From Thermoproteota archaeon (GTDB lineage: Archaea; Thermoproteota; Thermoprotei_A; EX4484-217-1): a stretch of 64,000 nt of DNA. The stretch's first letter is position 1; every line of letters starts with the position of its first letter. The translations under genes were made by a program, and so were the position numbers. The notes under the pieces are model-generated. The model did no database searches. It saw nothing but the letters and a program-made list of their open reading frames with translations, and was not told the DNA's origin. This document shows positions 14,370 through 16,128 of the stretch, one piece after another. Location: contig JAPDJU010000005.1 in assembly GCA_029258915.1 (NCBI GenBank), forward strand, positions 124,001 through 188,000. Reading direction: 5' to 3'.

Positions 14370-14744
14370 ATGCTCGACGGTCTGCCATTAGAGCTAAAGC
14401 GTAAGCTGTTGAAAAAACAAAGGGAAATTATTGAAGAATGTCTTAGAAAACAGAAAAATAAAGAATTTAAAAGAAAACCTAAGGAAATAGTGTTATCAGT
14501 GTTAGATAAGAAAGCGAAAGAAGTGTTTGCTGAAGCTGAAAAGCAGTATCCCGGTGTAATCGACTACATAACTGAGGTCTTAGCAAAATACATCATAGAA
14601 AAAAGTGTGAAAAGCATAGATGCATATGAGCTCTATAACTTACTTTTAGCTCTTGGCTTAGAAGTTAGACTTCCATTAAAAATAAAATTTGTAAGACATG
14701 GTAAAGAGTTTAGTGTTGAGGAATATGTGAAAGATGAGGAATAA
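14370..14744 (+). CDS. Uncharacterised basic helical protein, 124 aa
   Basis: 124-residue, highly charged, mostly helical protein. The first 50 residues are very basic (K-R-K-L-L-K-K, K-N-K-E-F-K-R-K-P-K), suggesting nucleic-acid contact. The middle holds a D-Y-I-T-E-V-L-A-K-Y helix and the end a short acidic tail. Function not recognised. Its 3' end overlaps the start of the threonine synthase-like gene by 11 bases, so the two form an operon and are probably coupled in translation. Confidence 0.65.
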   Translation: MLDGLPLELKRKLLKKQREIIEECLRKQKNKEFKRKPKEIVLSVLDKKAKEVFAEAEKQYPGVIDYITEVLAKYIIEKSVKSIDAYELYNLLLALGLEVRLPLKIKFVRHGKEFSVEEYVKDEE

Positions 14745-16128
14745 AATGCGTTTTCGATGCCAAAATTGTAACAGTATATATGATGAGCCTAGAATGTTAT
14801 GTCCTAAATGTGGGGGCCTTATTCTTACATATTATCCTAAACCTAAAGCACTTAATATATGCAATGAATATGAAGGAGTATGGAAATATAGAGACAATTT
14901 ACCACCTATACCAATAAACTATGTGATATCGCTTTATGAAGGAAATACTCCTCTTTTCAAAATAAAGAACTTTACCAAGAAAATCAAGTATAGAGGGAAA
15001 ATATACGTTAAGGACGAAACAAGAAATCCTACTGGAAGTTTTCGAGACCGTGTTGCTACAGTTATAGTTTCCCACGCTTTATACGTTGATGCTAAAAAGC
15101 TGGTATGTGCAACTGATGGAAACACGGGTGCTTCCATAGCAGCTTATGCTGCAAAAGCTGGAATAGAGTGCTCAGCTATAGTGCCTAAAAATGCAGACTA
15201 TGGTAAAATACTTCAGATGCTAGCTTATGGAGCAGAAATTTTAGAGTATGGTGAGATAATAGATGAGGCAGTATTAAAAGCACTGGAAGTAGCATTAACT
15301 GAGAAGTATTATCAAGCAACAGCAGAACTTAATCCCCTATCGATAGAGGGGCTAAAAACAATAGCCTATGAAATCTATGAAGTCTTAGGTAAAGTACCGG
15401 ATTGGCTGGTTATACCGACAGGTTCAGGTCTCACATTACTTAGCACAATACTTGGTTTTAAAGAACTACATAGTTTAAGTTTAGTTAGTAAAAAACCTAA
15501 ATTCCTTATAGTTCAATCCTTAGCTTGTTCACCAATAGTTGATTTCATAGAAGGTTCTAAAGTAGAACGTAGACCAAGAAAACACATACCAGGTCTGGAT
15601 GTATGTAAACCAATGATTTACACGCATATCGTAAACTTGATTAAGGAATATGAGTGTAGAGGTGTTAGAATAAATTACGTTGAAGCTTTAAATTACGTAG
15701 ACGTAGTTGCAAAACTTGAAGGACTTTTCCTAGAGCCAGCTGCTGCAGCAGCTTTTGCAGGACTAGCTAAAGCCGTTAAGGAGGCTATAATAGAACCGGG
15801 CGATGAAGTTGTTGTTTTAGCTTCCGCTACAGGGCTAAAGGCCTCTATGCTTTATGCAAAAGAACCCTCAAGGAAAAAGTACATACCAAAACTAACTGGA
15901 TTAAACACTAAGGCCTTAATTCTTGAAATTCTGAAAGCAAAAGGCCCCATCCACGGTTATGCCATATGGAAAGAGCTAGGTCTTATGTTATCTGTACAAG
16001 CCGTATATCAGCATTTAGAAGAGTTGAGAAGAAAAGGTTTAGTGAAAGTTAAAGTCGTTGGAAGGAAAAAACTGTATAGCCTAACAGATAAGGGACTACA
16101 GTTTTCTGAGATACTTGGCAAAATATGA
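14734..16128 (+). CDS. Threonine synthase-like protein fused to PadR-type wHTH; PLP lysine replaced by arginine
   Basis: Fold-type II PLP-enzyme architecture. The N-terminal zinc ribbon has Cys9, Cys12, Cys23 and Cys26. A threonine synthase-like body spans about 45-385 (D-E-T-R-N-P-T-G-S-F, A-T-D-G-N-T-G-A-S, P-T-G-S-G, E-P-A-A-A-A-A). Residues about 388-464 form a PadR-like winged helix (I-H-G-Y-A-I-W-K-E-L ... V-Y-Q-H-L-E-E-L-R-R-K-G-L-V). The family has the Schiff-base lysine in S-F-K-D-R; here the codon is CGA, giving Arg104 in S-F-R-D-R. It may therefore be a non-catalytic ligand sensor and regulator rather than ThrC. An alternative is an enzyme with altered chemistry. Confidence 0.8.
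   Translation: MRNKMRFRCQNCNSIYDEPRMLCPKCGGLILTYYPKPKALNICNEYEGVWKYRDNLPPIPINYVISLYEGNTPLFKIKNFTKKIKYRGKIYVKDETRNPTGSFRDRVATVIVSHALYVDAKKLVCATDGNTGASIAAYAAKAGIECSAIVPKNADYGKILQMLAYGAEILEYGEIIDEAVLKALEVALTEKYYQATAELNPLSIEGLKTIAYEIYEVLGKVPDWLVIPTGSGLTLLSTILGFKELHSLSLVSKKPKFLIVQSLACSPIVDFIEGSKVERRPRKHIPGLDVCKPMIYTHIVNLIKEYECRGVRINYVEALNYVDVVAKLEGLFLEPAAAAAFAGLAKAVKEAIIEPGDEVVVLASATGLKASMLYAKEPSRKKYIPKLTGLNTKALILEILKAKGPIHGYAIWKELGLMLSVQAVYQHLEELRRKGLVKVKVVGRKKLYSLTDKGLQFSEILGKI

Follow-up and report, generated by a model that had tools for sequence, protein, structure and literature searches.

Gene organization and domain architecture of P0001

By the window we mean the whole 64,000-nucleotide stretch of DNA that was analysed. 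It encodes, on the forward strand, a threonine synthase (ThrC)-like protein, P0001, which carries a winged helix (wHTH) at its C-terminus (Table 1). The short gene that overlaps its start codes for a product with no match in Pfam or NCBIfam; the same gene is the upstream neighbor of the P0001 homologue in four further loci (L132, L133, L134 and L135) and is conserved within the order.

Table 1. Features of the P0001 locus (positions are those of the window)
Feature	Position	Strand	Evidence or remark
124-aa gene, no known family	14370..14744	+	3' end overlaps P0001 start by 11 nt
P0001, ThrC-like pseudoenzyme with C-terminal winged helix, 464 aa, proposed vitamin B6 regulator	14734..16128	+	
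N-terminal zinc-ribbon cysteines C9, C12, C23, C26	14758..14811	+	Alignment: invariant in 45 fused homologues
PALP / ThrC-like fold-type-II domain, residues 65-364	14926..15825	+	Pfam PF00291, Foldseek
Codon CGA = R104, position of the PLP Schiff-base lysine	15043..15045	+	Sequence; homologue column tabulated
PadR-like winged-helix domain, residues 389-464, putative DNA-binding	15898..16125	+	Pfam PF03551, AF2

A sequence-only reading of this gene had described a ThrC-like protein fused to a PadR-type domain, with its PLP-binding lysine replaced by R104. The open reading frame, the CGA codon and the Pfam matches to both PALP (E 2.8e-68) and PadR (residues 396-455; 32.0 bits, over the gathering score of 27) bear this out. 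When P0001 is aligned with solved threonine synthases, R104 falls in the column of the PLP lysine, in the motif NPTGSFRDR (DNA context aca aga aat cct act gga agt ttt cga gac cgt). The further claim that the remaining PLP-fold motifs are kept stands for most of them, including those adjoining R104, but not for all: for instance, the Thr of TGHGLK is S364 in P0001. The AlphaFold2 model displays the ThrC fold (mean pLDDT 91) followed by a low-confidence linker (residues 381-388) and a C-terminal domain with the order helix-helix-helix-strand-strand-helix (helices 392-403, 408-415 and 421-433; strands 437-442 and 445-450; helix 452-463). Together with the PadR match, this domain agrees with the winged helix earlier placed at residues 388-464. 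In Foldseek comparisons with solved structures, threonine synthases rank first, with a TM-score on the target of about 0.84. No independent structural match was obtained for the winged helix, the PDB structures listed being all ThrC or other PLP folds, and its sequence matched PDB entries only at E-values of 0.1 or above.

Loss of the Schiff-base lysine in a wHTH-fused family

Related genomes furnished 61 loci with a wHTH-fused ThrC-like gene, in 60 of which the residue at the lysine position could be read: it is R in 50, one of M, I, L, Y or F in seven, and K in three. The sequence-only reading had allowed that R104 might be a sequencing error, and had called for a search for homologues with the same R and the same wHTH. 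As R recurs in 50 of 60 readable fused homologues from separate genomes, it is neither a chance substitution nor such an error, the latter being ruled out by conservation across dozens of genomes. We further compiled a 78-row alignment of wHTH-fused and unfused homologues, to which members associated with pdxS-pdxT (pdxST) were added. Here the lysine is missing in 57 of the 60 fused proteins (R 26, I 8, A 8, S 6, L 4, V 2, and Y, F and M once each) versus being kept in all 18 unfused ones. A homologue set in which K is always present, which would have refuted the proposal, is thus not what is found. In a tree from which the winged helix and the lysine column had been left out, the wHTH is gained or lost in a single change, while the K/non-K state changes twice. 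Judged by these homologues, P0001 is a member of a widespread archaeal family and no oddity. The three K-keeping fused proteins (L011, L111 and L123) form one clade nested inside the R clade; they have no ECF gene nearby, share other neighbors, and have possibly regained the lysine.

These data bear on whether P0001 might still function as a threonine synthase or as an enzyme akin to it, with the DNA-binding domain as a mere accessory. Its best NCBIfam model, and closest named family, is indeed NF004170 (PRK05638) 'threonine synthase', which matches at full length with the winged helix included (residues 7-459); the solved-structure fold match points to ThrC and three fused members retain K. 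However, the score of 372.8 bits is under the curated cut-off of 421, and the name implies an enzyme while the catalytic lysine is absent from those members that were read: NF004170 members over the cut-off occur in 18 genomes of the class, and those whose motif was read carry R. Moreover, the check for a second intact thrC suggested by the sequence-only reading shows that intact K-type ThrC paralogues are encoded elsewhere in the window genome (L002 with NPTGSFKDR and L003 with NPSGSFKDR). P0001 shares the fold and most active-site motifs with threonine synthase (PDB 2zsj, 1uim, 2d1f) but differs in lacking the catalytic lysine, which is missing in nearly all family members, and in its added, putatively DNA-binding domain. 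Since the Schiff-base lysine is gone, the ThrC-derived domain is predicted to be catalytically dead; by this criterion P0001 is not a threonine synthase, and we find the enzymatic alternative scarcely credible.

Association with ECF importers and pdxS-pdxT

We examined the neighborhoods of the fused genes, calling neighboring genes with a simple ORF script. An ECF S-component-like gene lies near the fused gene in 38 of the 61 loci; in 31 of these it comes immediately after the fused gene, on the same strand, often with EcfA and EcfT next. In the window genome the ECF S homologue is on another contig (G000:C2:17920-18591), with EcfA- and EcfT-like genes after it; a 244-aa membrane-like protein (L153 3757-4491) closes this operon after EcfT. 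The sole PDB sequence match of this S component is 4HZU_S, i.e. HmpT, with E 4e-12; it was compared by PDB search only, and the S components of two relatives were assigned to PF07155. Both of the archaeal S components that were aligned with HmpT have a Glu opposite its Glu41. The substrate of HmpT is reported to be pyridoxamine, on the basis of mass spectrometry (PMC4860826). While HmpT/PdxU2 is the only solved relative of the proposed target S component, it is bacterial (Lactobacillus brevis) and the similarity is weak and spans about half of the archaeal protein; furthermore, S components switch substrate easily and this similarity therefore leaves the substrate unfixed.

In Bathyarchaeia-type loci the ECF S gene is followed by a gene for an AIR-synthase-like protein (PF00586/PF02769), a cluster found in 16 loci; loci with this protein are L093-L095, L098, L103, L105, L107, L108, L114, L117-L121 and L126. 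Its nearest models are HypE, ThiL and SelD, all under the cut-off.

The second recurrent association is with pdxST. In about 19 of the 57 pdxS loci read, a wHTH-fused ThrC-like gene adjoins pdxS or pdxT, being placed upstream, downstream or divergently (families f4, f7, f10, f13, f14, f21 and f49); all such proteins with a readable motif lack the lysine, having A, S, V, I or L in its place. Some fused I- and L-forms (L205-L207, L209 and L210; f12 and other families) have no pdxST or ECF neighbor in the stretch read, and a biotin-carboxylase-like gene is close by in L205-L207.

At the level of gene content, PdxS is present in 2 of 33 R-form genomes versus 107 of 193 other genomes of the class (p = 2.8e-8). 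R-form here means a full-length fused match, and four of the 33 (f15) carry Y or F where read. ThiC, which served as the control, is depleted too (3 of 33 versus 68 of 193, p = 0.002), so that general auxotrophy explains part of the PdxS signal. The genome sample comes mostly from one phylum and some of the counts include related, phylogenetically non-independent genomes; hence, the Fisher p-values here and below overstate the evidence, and the tree and the tests in trans weigh more.

Conserved operators at the proposed target genes

A palindrome stands upstream of the linked ECF genes, just past a TATA-like sequence. In Thermoprotei-type genomes it reads TTAAAG-N6-CTTTAA, while its Bathyarchaeia-type equivalent is TAGTATAGTTNNAACTATACTA, with the shared core AGTTNNAACT. 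The pattern AAAGNNNNAACTT was found upstream of 11 of 12 linked ECF genes versus 0.5% of shuffled regions, and AGTTNNAACT upstream of 15 of 23 Bathyarchaeia-type linked ECF genes versus 0.9% of shuffled regions; these counts are descriptive only, because the same sequences defined the pattern. Of 14 Bathyarchaeia-type genomes, 12 have just 1-4 occurrences each of the long palindrome (up to two mismatches), and all matches with zero or one mismatch in the 14 lie at the regulator/ECF junction.

Unlinked ECF genes are free of this circularity. In the window genome an exact TTAAAGGAAAAACTTTAA is located about 37 nt before the start codon of the S component in the unlinked ECF operon (G000:C2). This 1.6 Mb genome has four exact sites in all, and the one at the ECF operon is the sole intergenic one, the other three being inside ORFs. 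With the pattern fixed beforehand, the core was then recovered at 7 of 8 unlinked ECF genes found afterwards in other R-form genomes, making 8 of 9 with the window genome included (the exception is G242). The motif was not found at the ECF genes of Y- and F-form genomes. Since the genome of P0001 has neither an ECF gene adjacent to the regulator nor pdxS, the role of P0001 itself rests on this one site in trans and on its relatives.

At the ECF promoter of the window genome and of two close relatives, a second, degenerate operator copy, CAAGTTnTTTCTTTAA, is seen just 3' of the first (L153 7632-7690, L265 and L266). Elsewhere in the window genome, a short stretch (L005, G000:C5:13723-13993) resembles residues 5-80 of P0001 (E 1e-5) and adjoins a one-mismatch TTAAAG-N6-CTTTAA site. 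We saw no operator at the promoter of P0001 itself or, in most loci, upstream of the fused gene, and autoregulation was counted out on the latter ground.

The location of the operators also speaks to the idea that the fused protein regulates threonine biosynthesis by sensing threonine, phosphohomoserine or a related amino acid, with the ECF and pdxST links being incidental. Such a role would fit a sensor domain of ThrC descent, and family f26 indeed has eight Bathyarchaeia-type loci (L086, L101, L102, L106, L112, L113, L115 and L116) in which a K-type thrC is a divergent near neighbor of the fused gene. Yet, a search of the divergent promoters facing thrC for the operator did not find it there, the conserved copy being upstream of the ECF gene instead. 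Outside this one family thr genes are not a shared neighbor of the fused genes, whereas pdxST and ECF genes recur in unrelated lineages. We accordingly hold a threonine regulon to be very improbable.

Of 54 pdxS promoters, only three (L200, L225 and L227) have an exact R-type core. All three come from the four examined genomes in which an R-form occurs without a local regulator of pdxST (p = 1.6e-4). Of the genomes combining an R-form with pdxST, G037 has CTTAAAGATTAAACTTTATA 36 nt before pdxS, G273 and G380 have AGTTNNAACT cores at pdxS, and G454 has a core with one mismatch. In the fifth, G042, an S-form regulator adjoins pdxST and the operator there is TTGAACGTTCAA. This second operator (up to two mismatches) is found at all 17 pdxS promoters beside A-, S- or V-form genes, as against 0.65% in shuffles. 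It is also found at six more pdxS promoters without an adjacent regulator. A whole-genome profile search with an A/S profile detected an unlinked full-length A/S-clade regulator in 6 of 6 such genomes versus 0 of 25 motif-free genomes (p = 1.4e-6); the residues at the lysine position of these six are T, A, A, M, Y and M.

The pdxST data also speak against a regulon for thiamine/HMP or for mixed vitamins rather than B6. ECF S components serve many vitamins, HmpT was originally named after hydroxymethylpyrimidine, an AIRS/ThiL-like gene sits beside the ECF gene in the Bathyarchaeia-type loci, and ThiC, too, is depleted in R-form genomes. Against it stand the direct adjacency of pdxST in about 19 loci and the R-type operators upstream of pdxS in genomes that have both an R-form and pdxST; in addition, PdxS shows a far stronger association than ThiC does. 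We therefore consider a thiamine or mixed regulon very improbable, and favor vitamin B6 as the object of regulation.

A proposed vitamin B6 sensor derived from threonine synthase

Taken together, these analyses show, at the level of sequence, that loss of the lysine is tied to the wHTH, that neighborhoods and operators are conserved, and that regulators and operators co-occur in trans. We think it probable that P0001 acts as a transcription factor controlling the supply of vitamin B6, in which a lysine-less, ThrC-derived sensor is joined to a winged helix. This reading rests on genomic evidence: DNA binding, the B6 ligand and repression are all inferred, in the absence of binding, expression or growth data. 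The sequence-only reading had conceived of a ligand-sensing regulator derived from an enzyme, comparable in principle to MocR/GabR but without the Schiff-base residue, an idea supported by the linked and unlinked operators and by the target genes, though without data on DNA binding or ligand; a regulon for vitamin B6 uptake and synthesis goes beyond that proposal and is supported by the same kind of comparison.

Mechanistically, a B6 vitamer, with PLP as the first choice, would most likely bind non-covalently, without a Schiff base, as the signal. The PadR-like winged helix, probably as a dimer, would bind TTAAAG-N6-CTTTAA in the promoter of the ECF operon, and its presence on this palindrome, downstream of the TATA-like element, would block transcription; the palindromic form of the operators agrees with dimeric binding, itself an inference. 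The importer would thus be held off when B6 is high and released when B6 is low. Where the lysine has given way to a residue other than arginine, relatives may play the same role for pdxS-pdxT, such that import or synthesis would be shut off under plentiful B6, the sign of regulation being inferred.

How far the old active site is used for sensing may differ across the family. The R-forms keep N130 and G232 of the PLP pocket, nearly always keep G230 and S231, and have S or T at 364. Retaining most PLP contacts, they could bind PLP. In the A/S-forms further contacts are gone, namely the Asn of the SxGN loop and the Thr of TGHGLK, and canonical PLP binding is doubtful there because of these additional losses, even as a model of the A/S clade retains the fold and the winged helix (mean pLDDT 88). 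A strict pairing of D for T in the SxGN loop with R was considered and rejected: some clades have SDGN, while the Bathyarchaeia-type R-forms have SNGN or SSGN. Hence, the ligand need not be PLP in every family member, and that of the A/S-forms is predicted with less certainty. It is conceivable that these proteins regulate B6 genes with no PLP in the old active site at all, and sense another vitamer, an intermediate or a protein partner. That the lysine gave way to residues as unlike as R, I, A, S, Y and F, and that the A/S clade dispensed with further PLP contacts as though the old chemistry were gone, lend this some force; the invariance or near-invariance of N130, the phosphate loop G230-S231-G232 and S/T364 in the R-forms weighs against it. 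We regard it as unlikely, though it deserves to be kept in mind beside the PLP-sensing reading that we prefer.

Relationship to known regulators and implications

The family is best read as the functional counterpart of PdxR in Archaea: it would sense B6, probably act as a repressor, and have been built independently on a fold-type-II pseudoenzyme. MocR proteins, which are reported not to occur in Archaea, combine an N-terminal GntR winged helix with an aminotransferase domain of fold type I, and the MocR member PdxR controls pdxST, pdxK and pdxU (PMC5320631). In both groups a PLP-enzyme fold is joined to a winged helix, and the P0001 family is connected to pdxST and B6 transport genes by genome context and operators only. 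In contrast to MocR/PdxR, its winged helix is C-terminal and PadR-like, its enzyme-derived domain is of the fold-type-II PALP/ThrC kind, and the PLP lysine is R104 in P0001, with K persisting in just 3 of 60 fused homologues. On these comparisons the family would work like PdxR and yet is no member of MocR/PdxR.

A further parallel is offered by ThiR and RbkR, archaeal vitamin regulators that likewise join a DNA-binding domain to an enzyme-derived one, but which serve thiamine and riboflavin, respectively, with other domains and from other families. Our literature searches, confined to open-licence papers, found neither this family, when directed at ThrC with PadR or winged-helix domains or at PLP pseudoenzyme regulators, nor any archaeal regulator of vitamin B6 genes. 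B6 transporters and alternative B6 kinases are regarded as open problems (PMC9997740). The AIR-synthase-like protein of the Bathyarchaeia-type loci is a candidate for the missing B6 kinase or for a partner.

On balance, we lean towards a scenario in which B6-sensing factors evolved in Archaea independently of bacterial PdxR/MocR. Under it, a fold-type-II PLP enzyme would have been fused to a wHTH and would then have discarded the lysine, leaving PLP to be sensed as a ligand that binds reversibly and without a covalent bond. Two or more branches whose operators differ would have arisen, one covering import (ECF) and another synthesis (pdxST).

The operators, targets and residues are explicit enough for direct testing. 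If the proposal is true, vitamin B6 metabolism would gain its regulators in Archaea, the domain from which MocR is stated to be absent (PMC5320631), and a candidate archaeal B6 importer would be named; the proposal would also correct the 'threonine synthase' annotation, which is probably wrong for the whole family. It would also mean that a PLP enzyme has become a regulator of B6 genes for a second time, by convergence, and in this case the loss of the covalent lysine may itself have made the sensor.
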